This document shows positions 17,648 through 37,640 of a DNA stretch of 64,000 bases, piece by piece (the stretch's first letter is position 1; the number at the start of each line of letters is the position of its first letter). The stretch covers positions 496,001-560,000 of the forward strand of contig JAKZZE010000022.1 of NCBI GenBank assembly GCA_024220505.1, read 5' to 3'. A program made the position numbers and the translations under genes. Source of the stretch: Rhizopus arrhizus (taxonomy: Eukaryota > Mucoromycota > Mucoromycetes > Mucorales > Rhizopodaceae). Below the pieces are notes generated by a model. It did no database searches. It was given only the letters and a program-made list of their open reading frames with translations, and had not been told where the DNA came from.

Positions 17648-17851
17648 CAGTGCGTCCACCCTCAATTGGACATTTTTTTGAGAACTTTGGTCAGATTTTA
17701 GAAAAAATCTTACCACCATTTTGAATTTCATTTGGACATTTTTATGAGAATCAATTGGCCACTCTTTGGAAACTCAGTTGGTCACTTTAGATCTTAAGCA
17801 TCATCATATAGGTTATATATACAACATAACCGAAGTCATAGTCGTAGTCAT
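17648..17851 (+). repeat. Left TIR of element 1
   Basis: Begins CAGTGCGTCCAC and contains about five TTGGNCA-type motifs, ending near the CATAGTCGTAGTCAT stretch. The inverted partner is 21848-22036. High identity suggests recent activity or conversion. Confidence 0.9.
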
Positions 17852-17877
17852 TCCTTTTCTTTTTTTTCATCAAAAGA

Positions 17878-20742
17878 TGTCTGATAAAGGTATTGATTTC
17901 GTTTTGGTAAATGCACTAACAACTAACGTTTCTCTGTCAAGATCTGAGCATAGCTCGTTTGCCATTGAACTGGAAACCTGGTTCAGATTTGATGAGTAAG
18001 CTGTTGTTTAACGATCCCATGTGAAGTGTTTTAAGTATTAAAGATAGGATAAAGAAGAATTAACGAGACCGAACAATAGCTCTAAAGTCGAATACTTTTA
18101 TTAAAGAAAGATTTCAAGGCTATTTATATTAGTTGAGCAAGACCTGAGACTAGATGACAAAAGATAGTTACGACCGATATGATTTGACATGTATAAGAAA
18201 AATTTTATAAACGATGTTAATAATCAATTGTTAAAATGAAAGTGAAACTTGGCTGTTTAGGGCAGTGATAATTATCAGGATCTATTCTTATTCAAACTCA
18301 TTTGTAAAGGTTTGGTCCATAATGATAAGACTGTATCTTATTGACATGTCAAAACATGACACCATGGTTGTGAAATTGGTTGTACAATCACTATTAGGTA
18401 TTTTATACTTGTTTATATAAATGTACTATGTAGTTCTTAACGCACATATTGCTATGTAGACAAAGAAATTCCAGCAGATAGTTATAAAGTAGCTGCAAAC
18501 GAGTGGGCCGATGGAACTAGGTCTGATGTTGTATACTCGGTCAGGGACATATCAACAGTAGCAACACCCCCTATCTTGATTGAGTTTCAGAGTAAAGTTT
18601 CTCACAAGTTTATGAGTAGACTTATTCGATATTCACTCTCTTGCAAAAGTCGATATGATGTATATCCAATTGTGATCATTGTCGTGTTTGGTCATTAATG
18701 ATGTCTTTATTTATTATTTTATTGTTGATCTCAGTCCAGCCTATGTCAGACTTACAATTGATAGTCAGACGATATAATCCAGGGTTCATTCTAAATTATT
18801 AGTTCCTGGGGGCAAAGTCCCCTAGCGAAGTGGTCAAGTTCTTTCTGCTGGATTAGTCTCTCGTCTGGTGGCACTAGTTCCAATCTCCATGGTCGTTTTC
18901 TGTTTGTTTGTTCGTGGGTTTAAGCCCTGTTATTAAAAAAATGATTCTTATGCTGACCAGTTAAAAAATGAGGCATCGGAATAAAATTCTCATACAAAAA
19001 AAAAAATTTATTAGTTCCTGTCCTTTTTCTTACTTAATAAATAGTAGTTGTTAGCTATTGACTTCTTACTATTTTTATATTATAAGTACTAAATATCTTA
19101 GTCATCTTTGCCACTAATGGCTTTTCAAGCGTTGAAGTGGAAAAAGAGTTTGCTAGTGTTGATGGAAGCCCATTCTTCAAAATCGATTCAAAATTCTGGG
19201 TCAAAAACTGCCTATTTGATTTCGCAAAGATGGATCAATGCTCACTTATCATTCACGCCTATGGAACCTATTGTAGCATTGGGCTATTTCCTTACTTCAG
19301 GCAGCTTGTCTTTAAACGCATTAAAATACAAAGAAGATCAAACAGTGCAGCAACTTTATGAAACTTTCCATAATTTAGTAATGGAAGAGTTAAAGCATAA
19401 AAGCAAATCAGTAGAACCTTTACAATCATTTCTTGCGCAGGTGAAAAGAAAAATCGACATCATGGACCAAGAAATTGCAAAGAAATTGAAAGACTGTGTG
19501 CATGAAAGTCTTATGATCAGCGAACAAAACAAGCTTTTGTCAACAGCTTCAAATCAAGACAACATCAATGACAACAAGTATACTGAAGAAGACATCTTGT
19601 TCATTGAGCCAAGCAGCACAGTTGGTAAGAATAAAAATTGGAATAAGCTTAAGCTTGCGTATGAATCGATAATGGCTACCCATGAACGAACTGCTGATGA
19701 TTCGATTATCAACTCTATTCTGGCAGCTGTGAATAGTGAGCGGGCTGACAGCTCGAATAGACACTCCCATCTTTGGAAAGTAGAATACAAGCTTTCGGGA
19801 ACATTGATAAACCCGATCATGTATAATTCAGCGGAGCATGTACATGGTAATTATGATGAGAAGTGGGTTAAGAAGAAGATTCACTATTACGTGAAAGGCA
19901 AGGGGGCCAACAGCATTAAAATTCTGTTACAAAGAATCCAGCCTGACATGTCGGATTTGTTAACAGAATTGCAATTCACACATGTTGCTGACTTGATAAC
20001 GATGCACGTAGAAGGAAGTAAGAAGTCTTTGTTGGAAAGAATGAACTGTGTGGATCGTGAAGAAGGCGTCATTGTTGTTACCAATATTCTGAGTACGGAT
20101 AAGTTAACCAGTGAATCGAAACTTATTTCTTCACTTGGTAAATACTATGATTTGATATGTTATTTGGATTACCAGTTATATAACATGTATCCAAACAATG
20201 GTGTGACTTCAAGATGGTGGGAGTTTCGGCAGCGGTTTGAATTGGGATCGAGTAACAGATCCATCAAGAATGAGGGGATGAAGATGATAGCAGCAGTATT
20301 CGACTTAGTTGGTGCCACTGTTAATACAGAAGATGAGAAGTTTGCGTTGACAGAACGAAGATGGAATGGTGTGGTCAATGCTAAACAAGTAATTAATCTT
20401 ATAAGAGATAACAACTGGGAGAATGCCTACGCGCTTTTGTTCAACCGCAAGAACAATTTGAACAGTGATGAGCATAAGTATGGTGGTAGTTTAGCTGGGG
20501 CAAGTTCAAACAGATTTATTTCCAAATTTGTTGGGAAAATCGGTTTGAAGTTGGATCTTAAAAACACAAACGTGCCAGCATTTAAGGATGTCGCTAGCTC
20601 CATGTGTGTTGTCAAAGCGCTTGTATCTGAAGATCATTATATCCAATTTGAATATATCATCCCCTTTGACATTAGACAAAAAGTAGAAGGATTATGGGCC
20701 AGTTATCGTCAAGCCATGCCACTTCCATCTGAAACGAATTGA
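17878..20742 (+). CDS. Rpn-like / PD-(D/E)XK nuclease-family protein, probably now broken
   Basis: I read one gene in pieces. Exon 1 starts MSDKGIDFVLVNALTTNV. After an intron (about 17998-18459) comes EWADGTRSDVVYSVRD, then PPILIEFQSKVSHKFMSRLIRYS and YDVYPIVIIVVFG. The D ... (I)EFQS spacing and the YPIVI block look like the Rpn/PDDEXK_2 fold of recombination-promoting nucleases. Downstream, SPFFKIDSKFW and AYLISQRWINAHLSFTPM..PIVALGYF resemble the same class. The long frame 19108-20742 (544 aa) supplies the C-terminal region, which I do not recognise. Two faults are visible: the frame changes between SKFW (about 19200) and KTAYLIS (about 19210), and a SINE sits between exons. The activity assignment is inference. 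Confidence 0.5.
18000..18459. other. Long intron-like stretch in element 1 gene
   Basis: About 460 nt between the first exon and the DKEIPADSYK exon, much longer than other introns in the window. I see no ORF. Its opening (TGTTGTTTAACG) and an internal AATACTTTTATTAAAG...CTATTTATATT are LTR-like, but no matching end or target duplication was found. Confidence 0.35.
18809..19007 (+). mobile_element. tRNA-derived SINE with target-site duplication
   Basis: A 199 bp insert is flanked by a perfect 13 bp duplication TTATTAGTTCCTG (18796-18808 and 19008-19020). Its head contains a pol III A-box-like TAGCGAAGTGG at about 18833 and, about 50 nt on, a B-box-like AGTTCCAATCTCC, as in tRNA-derived SINEs. 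The tail ends in a run of A. It was inserted into TIR element 1 after that element formed. Confidence 0.85.
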
Positions 20743-21331
20743 ATTACTTTAGTTCGACAAACAGTGATAATAAAAAAAATGTATTTTTGTGTGTGTGTTT
20801 TTTTTTTTTGATGATTTTTCACCCTCCTGAACATTTTTCAGTTGTCCAAACTTGTGTTTCTTACATCTTTTTGTAGTTCATTGTATACTCTATTGAGTGA
20901 TATATATGTCATTGCTGTACCGTGTCAGTGCATTGAAGAATGGGCGTTTGACGCTTTTGCGTAAGCTGTGTGTAACCATTAAAAATGATGAAAATGAATC
21001 TAGTTAAGCATGTATCGGTCCTATCATTAATCGAATAGTACCATTGCAAAGGGAATATAAAGTTGTATATATTTCAATTTTTTACTAAAAAAAATTAAAA
21101 AAAAAGAAAACGGTGTATTTCCCCTACACATCTTTTATCCCATAAATTGTTGTCAATATATATAGCCAAAATTGATTCGTTTCAAGTCGTATAGAGAAAT
21201 AGTTACTCAATTATAGCATTTATTTGTTAACGATTCAAGAAAAGAAAACAGAACAATGTGAAAACAAATACCCAACATCTAGTTAATACAAGATATACAT
21301 ACGATTCAAGGGGGTAAAACAATAAATGATT
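20743..21331. other. Non-coding part of element 1 between its two genes
   Basis: Contains a GTGTGTGTGT plus T-run at about 20790-20810 and A-runs near 21088-21110. No ORF of note. It lies between the 3' ends of two convergent genes. Confidence 0.45.
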
Positions 21332-21814
21332 TTATTCATTTTGGTCTTGATGACCACGACCACGAGCAAAACGCCCAGGACGCCAAACAGCAGCACGCGC
21401 AAACTTCATCTCTTCTTCTTCTAATTCTTGTGCATCGGGTCTGTACACTGATTTTTTGAAAATCACTAAGAAAAAGAAAATAACAATGCTCTGCCTTGTT
21501 GTCCTGGAGGCAGAGTCCAAACCATAGCGCAATTCCTCATCAACAATTATCTCGTCTAAGTTGAACTCAGATGAGTCCACCCGCAAAATATCGACAATGA
21601 TTTGCTTTGCTGGATACCGGATGTCGAAGCTGTAGTCTGCCAACTGGTAGTACTCTTGAAGTATGTCATAACAGTACTTCAAGAGTAGTGTCAACGTCAA
21701 ATCCAAACCATCAGCTCTCAACAATCGAGCGCGCACACGACCAAACTGCGCGACCATCTCGTTCATCTGCGCATTATACTCATCATGAGTGAGAACGTCA
21801 GTTGAGGCTCTCAT
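21332..21814 (-). CDS. Small unrecognised protein encoded in element 1
   Basis: Starts MRASTDVLTHDEYNAQMNEM just inside the right TIR and ends FARGRGHQDQNE. The middle is acidic and probably helical (LLKYCYDILQEYYQLADYSF, SSEFNLDEIIVDEEL). The C-terminus is RG-rich. A hydrophobic SIVIFFFLVIFKK stretch in the open frame is more likely an intron of about 40 nt (gttatt...aatcag, around 21450-21490) than a membrane helix. I do not recognise the family. Its place opposite the nuclease gene suggests a helper such as a DNA- or RNA-binding protein, but this is a guess. Confidence 0.45.
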   Translation of the reverse strand: MRASTDVLTHDEYNAQMNEMVAQFGRVRARLLRADGLDLTLTLLLKYCYDILQEYYQLADYSFDIRYPAKQIIVDILRVDSSEFNLDEIIVDEELRYGLDSASRTTRQSIVIFFFLVIFKKSVYRPDAQELEEEEMKFARAAVWRPGRFARGRGHQDQNE

Positions 21815-21847
21815 TAAATCCCTCAGGTACGATTACGCCTACGCTGA

Positions 21848-22036
21848 TGACTACGACTACGACTTCGGTTATGTTGTATATATAACCTATATGATGATGC
21901 TTAAGATCTAAAGTGACCAACTGAGTTTCCAAAGAGTGGCCAATTGATTCTCATAAAAATGTCCAAATGAAATTCAAAATGGTGGTAAGATTTTTTCTAA
22001 AATCTGACCAAAATTCTCAAAAGTGTGGACGCACTG
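21848..22036 (-). repeat. Right TIR of element 1
   Basis: Inverted copy of 17648-17851, ending GTGGACGCACTG before TA. It lacks the 17 bp insertion seen in the left arm. Confidence 0.9.
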
Positions 22037-27962: not shown

Positions 27963-27964
27963 TA

Positions 27965-28946
27965 CAGTATTTCCACTCTCAATTGGTCACTTTACCGAAA
28001 AAATTAGTCAGGTATTTGAGTCTAATTGGCCATATTTTTGGACCCAATTGGTCGAATTTTTGAAGCCTGTTTGGTCATCTTGCTGAAATAAATTGGTCGG
28101 CTTTTTGAAAACCAATTGGTCACTTTCTGGAATTAAGTTGGTCAGGGTCAAAACTGTACTGTACTTCTTCAAAGTGGTAAAGACAGATGACTTTATTAGA
28201 TCGGCTATTTGTTTTTGCAGTTTTCAAATCTTTTAATGGAATGTTGAATGAAGTTCTGAAGATGTTTCAGGGGAATAGCTTCACAGCCCTCAATAATCCT
28301 TGTTGTCAAATTTTCAGTATCTTTTAAGGCATGACTTAAGAACAGTACGATCTCATGAAACATCAAAGTAAGATTTTATTATAAGAAAATACGCCCTACT
28401 GGCGTATCGACTTGACGACATAGAGCATCAATAATCTTCCTGCAAGTTAAAAAGTCTTCCAGGTTCTCTAAATTATGAAAGGCCAATCAAATGTTTTTCC
28501 CTGTAGAAAAATCAAACTTACTCAAAATTCTTATTCATTAGGTCTTAGTGTAAGCAAATAAGAATTATCATTGATTTGAAAGCTCAAATTCTCTTTCTCC
28601 TTTAACTGTGCAGCAGTTAGTCTTACCTAAGGACTTTAGTATTTTGGTTTTGATGTCTATAAGATCATACCATACCTTTAACAAAGCTAATTAAGTTGTT
28701 CTTAAGATAAATGCTCCAAATACCTTAATCAATAAATGTGATATTTATAACTAAAAGAGAAATTCAGAAAGTCTAAACAAAAACGAATTGTAGTCAACCG
28801 TGTTGAAGAGGGAGCAAAAACAGTTAGCTACAATGGAAAACTGTAGGGGATGGATCTATCACTCCCCAAAAAAAAATCCGACTGTACGGATGTATGGCTG
28901 CGTTTATGCCTGCGTTTATGCCTGCGTTTATGGCTGCGTTTATGGC
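27965..28946 (+). repeat. Left TIR of element 2 with TTGGTCA iterons
   Basis: About eight imperfect copies of (A)ATTGGTCA plus T-rich filler lie at about 27982-28150, spaced 20-25 bp. About 650 bp of unique non-coding sequence follows, then an ATG-led frame (28828, MENCRGWIYHSPKKNPTVRM) that runs into the 12-bp minisatellite. The inner border is where the minisatellite diverges from the right arm. Confidence 0.9.
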
Positions 28947-29150
28947 TGCGTTTATGGCTGCGTTTATGCCTGCGTTTATGGCTGCGTTTATGCCTGCGTT
29001 TATGCCTGCGTTTATGGCTGCGTTTATGCCTGCGTTTATGGCTGCGTTTATGGCTGCGTTTATGGCTGCGTTTATGGCTGCGTTTATGCCTGCGTTTATG
29101 GCTGCGTTTATGCCTGCGTTTATGCCTGCGTTTATGCCTGCGTTTATGGC
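28899..29150 (+). repeat. 12-bp minisatellite, 21 units
   Basis: Exact 12-mers TGCGTTTATGCC or TGCGTTTATGGC, 252 bp in all. The two variants differ at one base. All frames stay open because 12 is a multiple of three and no unit has a stop. This makes long but artificial ORFs on both strands. The matching site in the right TIR (35537-35584) has four units in the same variant order as the first four here (C, C, G, G). Confidence 0.97.
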
Positions 29151-29592
29151 TGTGTATCATGAATTATAATAAGCTGTGCTTCCTTTTGCACAATTACTCT
29201 TTAGAATTTACCTTACAATTATTGATATCAAATATATTTGGAGAATTGCCTTTTATATCTTCAACTCTAGAAGTTTGGAATAAAAAGGAAGCTGGTTTTT
29301 ATATTACAAACACTATAGATGCCAATTTTCGAAAATAATAATAAAGTCTGTGCTTAAAACCTTAATGTTGTGTTCTCCTTTTTCTGTCTTACTTAAGGTA
29401 GAGTTATATATTCAATTAGCATCTCCCTGTGTTATCCGTTAAGCTAATTGCCTGTTAACCCGTCTCTGTCCCTGACATTGTGTTTGTGATTAATATGCAA
29501 TTACATTTCAGCTAATGATTAATTAGGATGTTGGTAAAGCATATTTGTTCTCGCAGTTATTTATTGAAGTAAGGTAAATTGTTACAAGCTAT
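29151..29592. other. Non-coding spacer inside element 2
   Basis: AT-rich stretch between the minisatellite and the 3' end of the nuclease-like gene. A short frame continues from the minisatellite to 29338 and has no recognisable content. Confidence 0.45.
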
Positions 29593-30318
29593 CTATTTAT
29601 GAAATGGGGTTTCTGTTGAAGTAGAAGTAACTGGGGTTATGATGCCTGATATATTCTTGATGCAGTTATCCAACCAATCGGATTCATTGGCTTTGTTTTT
29701 GCTCTTCTCTTTTACTAAATTATATACCTTTTTTACATGAGTTTTAATCTTGTAAATTTGGATTAGTACAGGTAAAACCTGCTCTCCAAAACCAGTAATA
29801 TCCGTAGAAAGCCTAAGTTCTTTGTAACTGGTAACTCTTGTAACGTATCCCTTTGGTCTATCAGCTAAGATTACTCTCAAGTGAAGACCTATGAATTATC
29901 AACCATATAGTGTATGTCAGTCGATCATTAGACATAATATAAAGTTATCTTTAATTTTACCTGAGTGAACTATGCCTACAGTGCTTAAGTCGTCGCAATC
30001 ACCTTGTTTTCTTTCGATCAATAGATCAAGCATATCTTTCAACACTTTAGGAAGTTTTTCCCCTCCTTCTTTAAGAACTTTGTTTCCATTAAGCTCAAGA
30101 TCTTTTGCAACTTCTGATGCTCCATACTCCAGGCTACAAGTGCTCTTTGGATTACTTTCTCGGATAAGGAAGTCAAAGCGATGACCCATGGGCTTTCGAA
30201 CCTTACTGTTGACATCTTGGATCGTTCTTTTGCGACTTTTTCTGATTGAGCTAGCCAACGAACTCCCTTCTCCCCTGGAAATAATTGACTTTTGTTAATC
30301 CAAAAGAACAAATATACA

Positions 30319-30350
<32 letters not shown>

Positions 30351-31396
30351 ACAAAGCTTACCTAATAATCTCCAGCTCCTCCAAGTCATCAAAAGCAGAA
30401 TCAATGATTGACCAGATATGAACATTGTACCAATTCTCAAGGTGATCCTTCTTTAGACTGCCGCTTTCATATTGTCTCAATAAAGTGTAGACAGAATGTT
30501 TGATCCAGTCTAAGTCAAAATGCTGATCTCGTTGATAGTTTTCTTCCCAACTTTGTTTTTCGTATAGGACTGATCTCAAAGCATTCGTCGACTGACAATT
30601 GAATTTGTTGAGATATTCCCTTATTTCGTTAGGTAAACGTTCAAATTCTTTGGGCTTAAATGCTTCGATTTCTTGTATTTCTTCGAGAGTAAACACGTTG
30701 TTCTCGATATATGAAGCGGCATTTTCAGCATCGAAAATCAGTGACTGAGAAGGATGATCGGCAATATGTAACTTTCCGAAAGTATATAGACTGTCTTCTA
30801 CTATTTTACCGGTAGATAGCATCCATTTATCGTCATTCCTTAGCAATTTGAAGCCTTCTTCTACTTCGGCTCTTTCTTTTACGGCTATTAAAAGGTATAT
30901 AAGTAAACATCAAAATATCATTATGCTCTTATTACTTACTATGCTTTTCATCCAGGTGAGTTCCAAGCTCAACCATTGTATCGAAATGTGATGTGCAGCT
31001 TATGCAACCAAAGTTTACGAACACATTTAGCTATTTAGGAAAAAGCTGTTAGAGAAAAAAGTACGAGCCAAATTGTTCAATGACAGGAATTTACTCTTGA
31101 TTTAGCTAAAGAAGCAGAAACGTATTTTTTGCTAGTGTGAAAGGTTAGATACACAGAAAACCTTATGTTCATATAATTATATTTACGCCTTTGTGTTGTA
31201 TCTTTTACTTTTTGTACTTGAATATTTAATTCCTAGAATAACAAGCATGTTATAGCAAAGTCTTGATTTGAAAGGGAGCTTTCTAAATACCTTCATAGAT
31301 TTCATAGTGGTCTCTTAGATTTCGAGCATTAGCAAACTTAGGACATTCACAGAGGTGGCATGCATATACTATTGTATAGTACTTTATCGAAGACAT
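29593..31396 (-). CDS. C2H2 zinc-finger plus PD-(D/E)XK-like protein of Mucorales type
   Basis: Starts MSSIKYYTIVYACHLCECPK (31396). The first part has CHLC...ARNLRDHYEIYE, a partial C2H2 finger. A later exon (about 31020-30950) has CISCTSHFDTMVELGTHLDEKH, a full C-x2-C-x12-H-x4-H finger. The next exon (about 30885-30361) reads WMLSTGKIVEDSLY, then FTLEEIQEIEAFKPKEFERLP. The next (about 30277-29960) has GHRFDFLIRES, then SLEYGASEVAKD, then GEKLPKVLKDMLDLLIERK: the D ... E-x-G-A-S pattern suggests a PD-(D/E)XK-type nuclease core. The last exon (about 29890-29593) has LRVILADRPKGYVTRV and ends TSTETPFHK. Introns look intact with no stops. I recognise the block pattern as a large Mucorales family of unknown role. 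Finger plus nuclease is a plausible DNA-cutting module, but that is inference. Confidence 0.6.
30312..30350. repeat. (TA)n microsatellite in intron
   Basis: About 25-30 nt of TATATA within the intron between two exons of the element 2 gene. Confidence 0.85.
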
Positions 31397-31459
31397 TTTT
31401 ACATTGCGAACAGAAAAATTAGTTATGAATACATTATTTGGTGATATCATAAAAAAACT

Positions 31460-32878
31460 TTGGTACCACGGGGCGCACCTAGTGTACCCAACAATTTGAG
31501 TGTTAACCCACAACCAACCAACCATGAGCTTCACTCATCGCCAACTTCGAGTTTTATTGCAGCCGCTAAAGGCCAACTTGGACCCACTGCTCCTCGAAAG
31601 TTTATTAATTCGTCTTCAGTCACTCTAAATCTCAACTGTCGACCCTCCGCATCAGCAACTTCTGCCCCAACTTACATTTCCATTATCAATGACCCTCTTG
31701 TACCTTCTATTCCATTGACATACATCACTGGTTCATCAGATTGCTCAGTTACATATACTGTCTCCCCATCTTATCGTCACCTGGACCTAGATTTCTTGTC
31801 AGCTCTGCGTGATGAATTTCCATTTGGTATTGGATTTGCCGTTCAACATAAAGAGGATGGTAATTCTCTGTCTGTCGAGATTGGCCTAGCCTCCGATGAC
31901 TACTGTCAACAAGCCATTAATAAGCCAATCGTACTTAATGATATCAGCTTCCCTGCAACCAGAACTTTTTCCTCCTCTTTGACTCGCTTTAATTTCAGTG
32001 GTATTCCTATGGAATCACCAGTGGAGACAAAGACTAACCTGCTGAACATTTTCTCCAAATACGGAAAGGTTGTTGACATCGTCCTACATCTTGACGATGC
32101 ATCCTCCAAATGGTTCCGTGGAAACGGACATGTACTAGTTGATATCGTTGACTCATCTGATGACCAATTGCAGCCTTCTTATAAGGTTGACTACAAAAAC
32201 CAAACTGCTATACTCGTTAACTGGAATAAGATGCCTGTACACTGTCGTTATTGTAAACAGATGGGCCATAACCGTGACTCATGCCCTGAAAGACCAAAAG
32301 AAAACCGCACATGCTATACTTGCGGAATTAAAGGTCACTTGAGTATCCAGTGCTCGCGTGCACCTCCCTCTGAACCAGAAGCTGCCAAGCGATCCCGCCA
32401 CATTGAACCCGCCTCCAACATCACCACCCGCGCCATTGCTACCCCTCGAGTCAATAAAACTCAGAAACATCTCAGCCAAATTACCACCACGATAACAACC
32501 GTACCTGTCACCACTAATGGCACTCCAGTAGAGGAAACTCAACCAGAGGACGCACCTGAATTTGAGGATATTGACATTCATCAATTGGAGCAGATCTTGG
32601 ACGACCAGGATCAAGGTAATGCCCACTTGGAAGTTGTATGCCGCGATGATAATGTTGATATGCCACATGAAAACACCAACCTCCCAGCATATGACACTCC
32701 GCCACAATTGCCATCTCTCAATCCCAAACCCTCACTACTGCCTCCACCATCACTAATACCACCACCCCTCGATCGAACAACAAACCCACCCCAGCTCCTA
32801 CACGTGTTTCGCCTAGATCCAATAAGGGTAAACGCCCAGTTCGACTGGGTGAAGAGGACTCCCAATAGGAGGCCCTAA
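31460..32878 (+). CDS. LINE ORF1, Gag-like with two CCHC zinc knuckles (5'-truncated)
   Basis: Nucleic-acid-binding ORF1. An RRM-like or Gag-like middle region (ILVNWNKMPV before the knuckles) leads to two CCHC knuckles: CRYCKQMGHNRDSC and CYTCGIKGHLSIQC (about 32255-32350). A Pro/Thr-rich C-terminal tail follows. The left edge coincides with the target duplication, so the true start is missing. The frame is otherwise intact. Confidence 0.85.
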   Translation: MVPRGAPSVPNNLSVNPQPTNHELHSSPTSSFIAAAKGQLGPTAPRKFINSSSVTLNLNCRPSASATSAPTYISIINDPLVPSIPLTYITGSSDCSVTYTVSPSYRHLDLDFLSALRDEFPFGIGFAVQHKEDGNSLSVEIGLASDDYCQQAINKPIVLNDISFPATRTFSSSLTRFNFSGIPMESPVETKTNLLNIFSKYGKVVDIVLHLDDASSKWFRGNGHVLVDIVDSSDDQLQPSYKVDYKNQTAILVNWNKMPVHCRYCKQMGHNRDSCPERPKENRTCYTCGIKGHLSIQCSRAPPSEPEAAKRSRHIEPASNITTRAIATPRVNKTQKHLSQITTTITTVPVTTNGTPVEETQPEDAPEFEDIDIHQLEQILDDQDQGNAHLEVVCRDDNVDMPHENTNLPAYDTPPQLPSLNPKPSLLPPPSLIPPPLDRTTNPPQLLHVFRLDPIRVNAQFDWVKRTPNRRP

Positions 32879-32905
32879 CTAACATATATTTATTTTCTTA
32901 TACTT

Positions 32906-34546
32906 ATGATTATGCCCAATATGAATACGAATATGACTGATATAAATCTAAACAACCCTATTAATTTTACATCTTATCCTACTACTGTCCCCGAATCAAG
33001 ATCCTTTTCTCAAGCCGAAAACCAATACGACAGTCCTTCATCCAGAAACAAACAAGTCAACATTAATGTTGGATCTCTTAATTGCCGTAGCCTCATCAAA
33101 ACCAACCAACCCACCACCAGTTCCGAATTCATCCGCTTCCTTCGATCACAATCACTGGATCTGCTCACCCTCCAAGAAACACATGCATCTGACCCCGAAC
33201 AACAACAAATTCTTGACATGAAATTCCAAACCAAGTCCTCTGTCTGGTCTCATTATTGCGGCATTGTGAGTTTGAATCCTTCACTAGTTTTATCCTCTGC
33301 CTTTGTCGATAGAGATCAAAGACTTATAGCTTGCACTGCATCCCACATGAATCACACTTTTGAACCCTTTACCATCGTTACTATTTACGCACCAGCCTCC
33401 TTATCGCCACGTCGTCAATACTATTATAACATCATGCAGCTACCAATTTTTTCGTTAATTCGTGACCCCCCTATTGATGACATAGATACGACTGATTTCA
33501 ATCAATGTTATCACCTCAACCATCGATTACTAATAACTGGCGACTTCAATTATAGCCCTTCCTTTTATCATAACCATACTAACCTTCCTACACAGACTCC
33601 CCTCCATGTGGCTCAAAAAGATTGGCATGAATTCCTCCTCACCAATTTTACTGAACTCACGCATCCATCGCTTGATGCTCCTCTACCAACTTTTCAACGT
33701 GGCTCTAGTTCATCAACCCTCGACTACATATTTGGTTCTTCGTCTACCCATGACTGTATTCAGACTTCCAATATTGAATTCATCAACACTACTTGGAGTG
33801 ATCATGCCTTACTTTCTGTTCGTCTTCGCTTTGGTAGTGGTCAACATGGCAAAGGCCTATGGCGCGCTAATCCCCATCTGGCACGTAATTCATACTTTGT
33901 GAAATCATTGTATCAATCTTTGGATTGGTTCTGCTCCTCTCGTCTGTTCCCTCCTGTTGACCTTACTAACAATGATCACTGTACTCCCATCGAATCTACC
34001 CAATCTTTGTGGGAAGATATCAAATCTGAAGTTAAAAGAGTTGCCCGATCCTTTGGCCGTCGACAGGCTTCCTGGAGACAAGCCCATCTTACACGCCTCC
34101 AAAACAAACGCACCCGCCTGTTAACGTCGGCAGAATCCAATGGAAAGCTACACATCCAATTAGCCAAAACTGAAGCCCTCATAGGTAATTTACAAAAAGA
34201 CTTTGCTAACAACCAAATTTTGAAAGCAAGTAAACACTGGCGAGAGCATGGCGAGACATCGGCAGGCTATCTAAAACGATCCATTACCACTCGTGCTTTT
34301 CAACGATACATTTCCAGTCTACAACATCCTATTACTGGCCAACTTTGTACTTCATCTCTAGACCTTCAAGATGCAGCCAAGACATTCTACCAACAATTGT
34401 ACCAGTCAGATCCAACCAGTGATGCTAATGTCTCCATTCTATTGGACACTATCCCTGACAGCGACATCATCCCTTCTGATTCAATACCACCTCTCCTGGC
34501 TCCATTTATCATTCACGATCTTATCTCAGCCTCCTCCAGATCTCCT
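32906..34546 (+). pseudogene. LINE ORF2: APE endonuclease and start of reverse transcriptase, interrupted
   Basis: APE/exo-endo-phos motifs in order: LNCRSL (N), LLTLQETHAS (E), LITGDFNYSPS (D and N), STLDYIF and WSDHALLS (D and H). A helical linker (KASKHWREHGETSAGYLKRS) then leads to the first reverse-transcriptase region. The frame runs out when the solo LTR begins at 34547. The part after the LTR (RKSSPGIDGIPYEIL, from 35114) is in register after the duplicated CTCCT. The protein is therefore broken twice, by the LTR and by the missing 3' end. Confidence 0.88.
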
Positions 34547-35113
34547 TGTTGTATAATGGTTAATGTAATAAAATAAAAGGTAGAAACAAAGATCAAGAAA
34601 CAGTTTGAGTACTTTTTGAGACTGATCTTTATTTCAGTTTAAGTTAAAGTAAAAATTATTCTAATTGAAGGCAGGTATTTATATCTTATTGAGTGAGTGG
34701 CTTGATATCTTCTATTGTAAGCGTTCTTCTAATATTTAGGTACTTTAACAAGTGTCATCTATAATTATGATTATGAAAACTTTTCATTTGTTCTTTTGTA
34801 TGTCTGTCATAGATTATCTTTTATTCTGGGAATTCCTCACTGATTTGAATAAGGTTATTTTACGCGTTATTTCAATTATGTGAAAGATTAGCAATATTCC
34901 TGATATTGGATTGGATCTTGTTATTTTAGTTGATACTTCTTCTTATCAAAGAACTCTCATTAATACAAAACATATTCTAAAAGAACATGTTTAATTGGAA
35001 CTGATTGTATGATCTTATTTAAATAAACTTATATTTTATTTTATTTAATTATGATCTTGTATTAAGACTTATATTTATGAATGTCAACTACGATCAGTTA
35101 CTGTTCTACAACA
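34547..35113. mobile_element. Solo LTR (567 bp) inside the LINE
   Basis: Starts TGTTGTATAATGG, ends TTCTACAACA, with TGTTG/CAACA inverted tips and a perfect 5 bp duplication CTCCT (34542-34546 and 35114-35118). No internal coding region, so it is what remains after recombination between the two LTRs of a retrotransposon. LINE coding sequence continues directly on the other side. Confidence 0.93.
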
Positions 35114-35254
35114 CTCCTCGCAAAAGTAGCCCTGGTATTGATGGCATTCCATACGAGATTCTCTCGCTAGTTTTCAAACACCCTGGGGTTGCCCCACTGG
35201 CTGTCAAAGTGTACAATGAAGCTCTGCTTCAAAGCGCTTTCCCTTCATCTTGAT
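35114..35254 (+). pseudogene. LINE ORF2 continuation (reverse transcriptase motif)
   Basis: Codes RKSSPGIDGIPYEILSLV, the conserved N-terminal reverse-transcriptase motif, then LAVKVYNEALLQSAFPSS. A TGA stop follows where Trp is expected, and the copy soon ends in poly-A. Confidence 0.85.
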
Positions 35255-35279
35255 GATGACATTTGACAACAACAACATT

Positions 35280-35282
<3 letters not shown>

Positions 35283-35347
<65 letters not shown>
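35283..35347 (+). repeat. Poly-A tract (65 nt) at LINE 3' end
   Basis: Uninterrupted A-run directly after an RT coding fragment and a short ACAACAACAACATTAGC stretch. Its purity suggests a young insertion. The last A residues also belong to the target duplication. Confidence 0.95.
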
Positions 35348-35349
<2 letters not shown>

Positions 35350-35536
35350 TCCATTTTTATTTTACTTTTATTATATCTTAATATAGTCACTTGACTTCAA
35401 ATAAACCGGAGTTCTCACTAGAGATATCCCCTATAAACAAAAGAATTATTTGGTGATATTTTGATAACGTTTTAAATAGCAAAAAAAAAAGCAAGTTGAA
35501 ATGCAGATGTGTCACGGAGAAGGCTGAACGGTCACA

Positions 35537-36519
35537 GCCATAAACGCAGCCATAAACGCAGGCATAAACGCAGGCATAAACGCAGCCATACATCCGTACA
35601 GTCGGATTTTTTTTTGGGGAGTGATAGATCCATCCCCTACAGTTTTCCATTGTAGCTAACTGTTTTTGCTCCCTCTTCAACACGGTTGACTACAATTCGT
35701 TTTTTGTTTAGACTTTCTGAATTTCTCTTTTAGTTATAAATATCACATTTATTGATTAAGGTATTTGGAGCATTTATCTTAAGAACAACTTAATTAGCTT
35801 TGTTAAAGGTATGGTATGATCTTATAGACATCAAAACCAAAATACTAAAGTCCTTAGGTAAGACTAACTGCTGCACAGTTAAAGGAGAAAGAGAATTTGA
35901 GCTTTCAAATCAATGATAATTCTTATTTGCTTACACTAAGACCTAATGAATAAGAATTTTGAGTAAGTTTGATTTTTCTACAGGGAAAAACATTTGATTG
36001 GCCTTTCATAATTTAGAGAACCTGGAAGACTTTTTAACTTGCAGGAAGATTATTGATGCTCTATGTCGTCAAGTCGATACGCCAGTAGGGCGTATTTTCT
36101 TATAATAAAATCTTACTTTGATGTTTCATGAGATCGTACTGTTCTTAAGTCATGCCTTAAAAGATACTGAAAATTTGACAACAAGGATTATTGAGGGCTG
36201 TGAAGCTATTCCCCTGAAACATCTTCAGAACTTCATTCAACATTCCATTAAAAGATTTGAAAACTGCAAAAACAAATAGCCGATCTAATAAAGTCATCTG
36301 TCTTTACCACTTTGAAGAAGTACAGTACAGTTTTGACCCTGACCAACTTAATTCCAGAAAGTGACCAATTGGTTTTCAAAAAGCCGACCAATTTATTTCA
36401 GCAAGATGACCAAACAGGCTTCAAAAATTCGACCAATTGGGTCCAAAAATATGGCCAATTAGACTCAAATACCTGACTAATTTTTTCGGTAAAGTGACCA
36501 ATTGAGAGTGGAAATACTG
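35537..36519 (-). repeat. Right TIR of element 2
   Basis: Inverted copy of 27965-28946. It carries the same iteron array (on this strand TGACCAATT) and only four 12-bp minisatellite units at its inner edge. Confidence 0.9.
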
Positions 36520-36521
36520 TA

Positions 36522-37640
36522 GTGTAAAATGTGCTAAATTGGTTTTCATACAAAATAGCTATTTAATATCAAAAATGAATATCTACAAAATCCTTGAAAC
36601 TACTAAGATAAACAAGTTGCAAGCGCCACATATTCTTGAAGAAAGCGTTTCTTTTTTGAAGAACTTTTTCGTTTTAACTTGATCTTGACAACGGACTAGA
36701 GATTTTCAACTGGATTAAGTTCAGACAAATATGGTGGAAGATAAATACGATACTCAATCTCTTTTGCAATTTCGAAAGTAGCATGTATAGACGCATTATA
36801 TATTATAATGTAACAGCCCTAAAATGTTTATGCTAATCCAAGGTATCTAATGTACTTTTGATAAAACTGATGTTGTGGCTGGTTACTGCACCTAACATAA
36901 TTTTTATTCTTGATCTACGCATTACTTTTCTCTTTTTTGAAGGGACCAATGATCGACTTACACATCTGTCGATAATGCTACAAGATGAAATACATCTCAA
37001 AATTATGCTGGTCCTAGCTCTTGTTTCTAGTACAACCACTGAGACGCGATCTCCTTTCTTTGACCATGATATTGTCTTGTTCAAATTGATATGAAAAGCT
37101 GACCCATTAACGAAAATACGATCACTCATACAGTTCACATCCGCTACTTGCAACTTATTAATATACTAATATCTTTTCTCAAATAGTTTCTGGTGCATTT
37201 CTTATTTTAAAATAAAAATGAGCTTATTTGAAAGTAATGCGGCATTTTTTATGTCAAAAGATTATGCAATACCGATCTCTTTATACTAAGATCCTTAAAG
37301 TCATTGATAATACTTTTCCATTGCTTGGTCTAAGACAGCTGAAAAATTTTCGTCGATGTAATTTACTAAGTAATATTTGTAAACCTCAGTAAAAATTACT
37401 GGCCTATCTAGCGTTTTTGATGATAACACTGGCTGAATCACATTCAATAGTTTTCTTAGTCGTTTCCCATCCAGATTTTCTCTATTCAAATTTGGACAAG
37501 CCGCATCTTTTTTTTCGTATACTATGAAGAACATATGTTTCTTTTGTTCTTCTGTGTATTTCTTGTTTGGATTTCCACTTTTCTGATTTTCCAATAATAA
37601 TTCGCCAAAGTCTCTTTTTTTCATTTTTTATTCCATCTTT
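36522..37640 (-). pseudogene. Decayed Tc1/mariner-type transposase, copy A
   Basis: On minus, a 107-residue open frame at 37624-37301 may be the N-terminal part (MKKRDFGELLLENQ; the family match is not certain). The 37153-36833 frame has RIFVNGSAFHINLNKTISWSKKGDR, matching the first catalytic block (usually VDE.AFN) but with N for D. Further on, YRIYLPPYLSELNPVENL (about 36755-36700) is the third block with its Glu. The second block reads YNASIH where DNA.IH is expected, so two catalytic Asp are lost. Stops and frameshifts occur throughout. Confidence 0.65.

Follow-up and report, generated by a model that had tools for sequence, protein, structure and literature searches.

How does a transposon persist when it has long, nearly identical arms, a nuclease-like gene and no working transposase? 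The question is raised by element 2, at positions 27965-36519 of a 64-kb window of the Rhizopus arrhizus genome (C15:496001-560000; coordinates without a contig prefix are those of this window, the whole stretch analysed). The element has Tc1/mariner-type ends, TA flanks, remnants of a DDE_3 transposase in both arms and an intact zinc-finger gene whose relatives occur in similar elements. With a probability of about 0.7, it is a transposase-less Tc1/mariner-type (IS630-Tc1-mariner) element with DDE_3-derived ends, mobilised in trans and carrying an accessory helper gene for a protein with zinc fingers and a predicted restriction endonuclease (REase) fold.

Element 2 is real and intact. Its left arm (27965-28948, plus strand, 984 bp) and right arm (35535-36519, minus strand, 985 bp) are 99.9% identical, the sole difference being a 1-bp indel in an A run, and TA stands on both sides (27963-27964 and 36520-36521), which bears out the original prediction of nearly identical, TA-flanked arms of about 1 kb. 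The first 180 bp of the left arm hold seven TTGGTCA-type 9-mers (at most one mismatch), mostly at a spacing of about 22 bp. Further in, identity between the arms stops on both sides within a 12-bp tandem repeat, GCGTTTATGSCT, which forms a minisatellite of 21 units on the left (28900-29151, plus strand) and of four units on the right (35536-35583). When 746 bp of the inner arm were compared with this genome (50.26 Mb in 41 contigs), they matched both window arms and two shorter partial sequences, and no second full copy was found. The window contains four inverted pairs of at least 60 nt: two are parts of element 2, one is a second element (element 1) and the fourth is a 72% match involving poly-A. 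TA flanks both ends in all seven elements checked, element 2 among them; for most of these the pattern searched for already included TA, and a duplicated TA is not distinguishable from a terminal one.

The arms point to the origin of the ends. Each contains, 252 bp from the terminus, the peptide LTTRIIEGCEAIPLKHLQNFIQHSIKRFENCKNK, the C-terminal tail of a DDE_3 transposase (28217-28327 on the minus strand in the left arm, facing the terminus; 36157-36267 on the plus strand in the right arm). This tail is 60% identical to C1:2650960-2651157 and 57%, 47%, 42% and 39% identical to sequences on C10, C3, C41 and C11, respectively; its top score was 55.8 bits, and the best of 500 shuffles reached 19.6. 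In Pfam, the C11 protein matches DDE_3 at E = 5.6e-28 and the C10 piece at 1.1e-4, under the Pfam cut-off. The first 30 terminal bases of element 2 are identical at 28 positions to the end at C10:407529, whose element contains a DDE_3 C-terminus. Besides both window arms, end-facing DDE_3 tails about 100-250 bp inside the terminus are found in both arms of C3:558348-569127, at the right end of C1:2647876-2651260 and at the left ends of C10:407529 and C17:492464.

These tails and shared ends lead us to reject the proposal that nuclease genes, not DDE enzymes, travel inside such repeats: the arms hold a DDE_3 C-terminus, and DDE_3 remains lie in the C10 element with nearly the same ends. No result of the analysis shows the nuclease-like protein acting as a transposase. 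Both the tails and a 4.0-kb long interspersed nuclear element (LINE) inside element 2 had been overlooked. Like IS630-Tc1-mariner elements with DDE_3, element 2 has a TA target, a CAGT end, a DDE_3 tail and DDE relatives in the genome; unlike them, it has no working DDE gene. Its DDE_3 transposase is reduced to a tail of about 40 amino acids (aa) per arm, beyond which no DDE match was found in the arm, and it is therefore termed a transposase-less derivative and not a full member of that group. Decayed pieces of DDE transposase also lie outside the right arm, on the minus strand at 36700-37630 (match at 36705-36818, E = 1e-5; the rest recognised by eye).

The carried gene lies on the minus strand and comprises seven exons joined across six GT-AG introns into a frame of 1413 bp, encoding 470 aa without an internal stop. 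Exon 1 (31291-31396) holds the start codon and a degenerate C2H finger, exons 2 (31187-31232) and 3 (31095-31131) are backed by homologs, and exon 4 (30940-31030) encodes a canonical C2H2 finger. Exon 5 (30362-30884) encodes a helical region with the motif WMLSTG..VED, exon 6 (29961-30274) the REase-fold core with its conserved D, E and E, and exon 7 (29593-29888) carries the stop codon at 29593-29595. The protein runs in this order, from the degenerate finger through the canonical finger and the helical region to the core. The second finger has the form C-x2-C-x12-H-x4-H and the first lacks the second H. The original prediction that the gene is intact is supported. Zinc-finger matches in Pfam had E-values of 0.23 and 0.39 with an early, incomplete gene model, under the cut-off, as were those of the homologs.

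Two R. arrhizus proteins share 100% and 93% identity with the gene core. A single-sequence search recovered 13 homologous proteins and an alignment search 66, many of them metagenome proteins, and the named organisms among the listed homologs are, in our judgement, all Mucorales; because the homolog search requires shared 5-residue words, distant relatives outside Mucorales may exist. The coding sequence appears constrained. Against C24:316-319k, three aligned pieces gave proportions of synonymous differences (pS) of 0.90, 0.78 and 0.72 and of nonsynonymous differences (pN) of 0.18, 0.20 and 0.31, and the ratio of nonsynonymous to synonymous substitution rates (dN/dS) between C1:2649k and C2:1385k is 0.18.

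Modelling suggests a PD-(D/E)XK-type (restriction-nuclease) fold for the core, in agreement with the original prediction. Structure predictions for two homologs of the window protein had pLDDT (predicted local distance difference test) scores of 80.5 and 75.4, and structural re-alignment of these models placed mitoribosomal chains first and REase chains next; the fold is assigned from these re-alignments and not from Foldseek E-values. In the literature searched, no report of mL37/mL65 as REase folds was found. Pfam, a sequence search of solved structures and Foldseek by E-value named no family for the core, and the second of these gave no match from the family to solved nucleases, PD-(D/E)XK enzymes such as BpuSI, DrdV, EcoRI and NucC included. 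Of the putative catalytic residues, D191 is conserved in 26 of 27 sequences, E206 and E211 in 26 of 26, and K214 in only 18 of 25. The pattern in the homolog P0004 is D-x14-E-x-G-x2-E-x2-K, whose spacing differs from a plain ExK.

Relatives of the gene are widespread in this genome, where 84 exon matches were merged by hand into 43 loci and the DNA of 22 was read. TA-flanked inverted repeats bound both ends of seven of these loci, in six elements: the window element, C1:2647876-2651260, C2:1300216-1302662, C3:558348-569127, C1:1730261-1739625 (two gene loci between 902-bp arms) and C41:1121066-1127437, with no more than a short gene fragment. The ends at C1:1730261 are CAGCCAGTACG, unlike the TTGGTCA type, and both ends at C1:2647876-2651260 are the 23-bp left end sequence of element 1 without mismatch. 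The proposed kinship with element 1 survives to the extent that relatives lie in TA-flanked elements, one of them with element 1 ends; the replacement of DDE enzymes that went with it does not. Two further loci have a single similar end (C23:401125 and C24:477353), and one, C4:1001540-1003441, has 324-bp inverted repeats without a CAGT end. Flanking by terminal repeats, expected for the family, is thus found for part of it, the remaining 12 of the 22 showing none in the examined flanks, often just 1.5 kb per side. Among these 12 is C24:316k, the closest family relative within this genome (67% identical), with no CAGT end in C24:312900-323000. This gene is flanked by inverted copies of the 12-bp GCGTTTATGSCT unit, and gene and arms therefore seem to have been long associated.

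Several neighbours of these loci were noted in passing. Element 1 (17648-22036) is TA-flanked with CAGTGCGTCCAC ends and contains a YhgA/Rpn-like piece at 18441-18698 (PF04754, E = 0.0039, under the cut-off) and a 546-aa frame at 19102-20742. The element 2 family gave no PF04754 match in Pfam searches. An R. arrhizus protein, P0024, joins an Rpn-like N-terminus to the family core, and the two parts lie as adjacent frames at C6:410076-411214. Spanning 2.0 kb, the element C17:492464-494489 combines TTGGTCA-type ends with a DDE tail and a distinct frame at 493920-494207, which is nuclease-like by eye only and has 16 matches in the genome. The frame C1:1563311-1563775, about 0.8 kb from a TACAGTATTTCTAC motif, resembles a Fanzor/TnpB C-terminus in its motif.

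Fuller DDE sequences also meet the family. C41:1121066-1127437 is a 6.4-kb palindrome whose 3172-bp arms are 99.9% identical, and each arm holds both a DDE transposase frame, interrupted by a single in-frame stop, and a short stretch of 56 aa that matches the family at 34% (E = 5e-6). In the transposase frame D, D and E are retained, the second D and the E being separated by 34 residues as counted by eye. In a Choanephora protein model, P0008, a segment resembling the N-terminus of this genome's DDE transposases precedes a family protein; its identity to DDE N-termini is 47% over 34 aa (E = 5e-4) and 48% over 29 aa (E = 0.003), and it also matches, at 59% over 44 aa (E = 6e-13), a frame that lies immediately within the C1:878716 end.

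Several results weigh against reading element 2 as a trans-mobilised element with a nuclease helper. Among the loci read, no element combines these ends with a full-length, intact transposase; in the C10 element only the DDE C-terminus was found, with 1.1 kb of its middle outside the reading, and no DDE tail was found at C2:1300216 or C1:1730261. As for the helper, no Foldseek E-value for the family fell below 0.001, K214, at the third catalytic position, is kept in only 18 of 25 sequences, and the young copy pair C23/C5 has a dN/dS of 2.1, which may reflect decay after copying. The 12 loci without terminal repeats count in the same direction. So, slightly, do the 21 unread loci, the end at C24:477353, which adjoins TG and not TA, and the P0008 link. 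Finally, six of 43 family loci lie within 5 kb of DDE genes, compared with 11 of 150 LINE endonuclease matches (Fisher p = 0.22).

A transposase role for the zinc-finger/REase protein itself, as a new type of PD-(D/E)XK enzyme reading the ends and inserting the element at TA with no DDE enzyme involved, would fit its intact, constrained gene and its presence in six TA-flanked elements (one with only a short piece), including one with CAGCCAGTACG ends in place of the TTGGTCA type. Such an enzyme is nevertheless very improbable in view of the DDE tails in the arms, the almost identical ends of an element that keeps DDE remnants and the 12 family loci read without ends. TA duplication and CAGT ends, moreover, are typical of DDE mariner elements. 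The same loci without ends, among some 43 in the genome, would suit a gene from a fungal host family captured several times by transposons as inert cargo with no role in mobility; in P0024 the core follows an Rpn-like segment, which also stands beside the C6 family locus. The inverted GCGTTTATGSCT units around C24:316k speak against mere capture, since gene and arms have seemingly been together for long, as do copies that look broken (C11:1068009, for example, has six stops, though these may be introns), and inert cargo is on balance unlikely.

Element 2 could also be a composite transposon, in which two inverted DDE elements flank the gene and move as a unit through their outer ends, arms of differing length being remnants of the two DDE copies. 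As in a composite, the 3' end of a DDE element recurs in the two window arms, and the C41 palindrome has a DDE frame on each side; against this, no DDE match extends past the tail in the window arm, and the inner boundaries of the arms lie in a minisatellite. This origin, which is compatible with trans-mobilisation, seems a minority prospect deserving some weight.

Three lines of comparison were set aside. Proximity between family and DDE genes exceeds uniform placement (six loci within 5 kb, where the mean was 0.93 and none of 2000 draws reached six, for the 35 loci on contigs whose length is known) and does not exceed that of LINEs, and was for this reason dropped as proof of two-gene elements. 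Part of the closeness is nesting: C23:399603-401123 holds a DDE element, from a young family with 93-96% identity among its copies, that stops right where the CAGTGCTTCCAC end of a different element has its terminal TA. A comparable end at C29:341892 is close to a DDE copy, and the two do not abut. Inverted pairs of DDE matches were discarded as a general sign of composite elements because C23 at about 1607-1687 kb, apparently one large inverted duplication, inflates them. Arm lengths are 985, 709, 317, 902 and 3172 bp with a family gene, and 35 bp at C1:2647876; 158, 19, 151 and 95 bp with DDE and no family gene; and 176 bp in element 1 and 51 bp in the C17 element. Longer arms in family-gene elements are a lead only, the cases being too few. 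Rpn-like genes lie within 3 kb of DDE genes at 11 of 69 loci, against 4 of 150 for LINEs (p = 0.0007); four of the 11 fall in one duplicated-looking stretch of C23, without which the count is 7 of 65 (p = 0.02), and seven of the 11 share a strand with their neighbour. Such neighbours are possible two-gene elements. All proximity searches scored the best candidates only, making these counts lower bounds.

The LINE occupies 31448-35444 on the plus strand and is a later insertion, absent from the original element. It comprises a gag with a CCHC knuckle, an APE endonuclease, an interrupted downstream part and poly-A, between perfect 15-bp copies of its target duplication, ATTATTTGGTGATAT (31433-31447 and 35445-35459). 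At about 4.0 kb it makes up nearly half of element 2, which measures about 4.5 kb without it. The LINE lies upstream of the gene in opposite orientation, its start 52 bp from the start codon. A shared LINE-like 3' fragment, seen by eye, lies just upstream of three other family genes (C23:403459, C24:474578 and C18:487189) in the same orientation as the gene.

How the trans-mobilised element would work can be outlined. The ends would have come from a DDE_3 transposon, the two arms still keeping the C-terminal tail of its enzyme. Having Tc1/mariner ends and target and no working DDE gene, the element should depend on a DDE enzyme from elsewhere; such an enzyme, made at another site in the genome, would act on the CAGTATTTCCAC end and the TTGGTCA repeats. 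The carried protein would be a DNA-binding, DNA-cutting helper and, by analogy with TnpB, would most plausibly cut the emptied donor site or an allele lacking the element, whereupon repair would restore the copy. The long identical arms may stem from template switching or from gene conversion between ends; the former, of an RpnA-like kind, would also explain why the inverted arms break off in a minisatellite.

Published work offers precedents. TnpB cuts the emptied site, and repair copies its element back (PMC11870625). RpnA, a REase-fold protein, promotes recombination, for which primer-template switching was suggested, and Rpn/YhgA-like proteins are PD-(D/E)XK nucleases proposed to act in gene acquisition (PMC5350276). 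Mariner elements with Fanzor1 only have Mariner ends and TA duplications and no transposase, others carry a transposase plus an endonuclease (GIY-YIG, EcoRII-C-like), and Rhizopus and Mucor are among the Fanzor hosts (Bao and Jurka 2013, PMC3627910). Element 2 resembles these Fanzor1 and endonuclease Mariners in its TA duplication and Mariner ends, and some of them likewise have the extra gene only (PMC3627910). Their extra protein is a Fanzor/TnpB or an annotated endonuclease or methyltransferase (PMC3627910), whereas element 2 encodes a zinc-finger protein whose core has no Pfam match and is predicted to fold like a REase, and its arms are close to 1 kb long.

A broader and distinctly doubtful extension is that Mucorales mariner-type elements are two-part systems, in which a cut-and-paste DDE transposase is joined by a separately evolving REase-fold nuclease of the zinc-finger family, the Rpn-like family or perhaps a third type at C17:493920. 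The nuclease would cut empty sites or promote template switching, preventing loss of the element and building long identical arms, and elements such as element 2 would persist on a nuclease gene and a borrowed transposase.

The kind of arrangement is already known; the novelty, as far as the literature was searched, lies in which gene family is carried and in the fact that several elements carry it, and no earlier report of a zinc-finger/REase family in transposons was found there. Should the protein prove to be an active nuclease, eukaryotic DDE transposons would have in it a protein-guided counterpart of TnpB and Fanzor. It would also be a natural pairing of zinc finger and REase, akin to engineered zinc-finger nucleases, and would offer a testable cause for long arms. 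If it is inert, the locus would show one nuclease-like gene family captured repeatedly by one transposon class.

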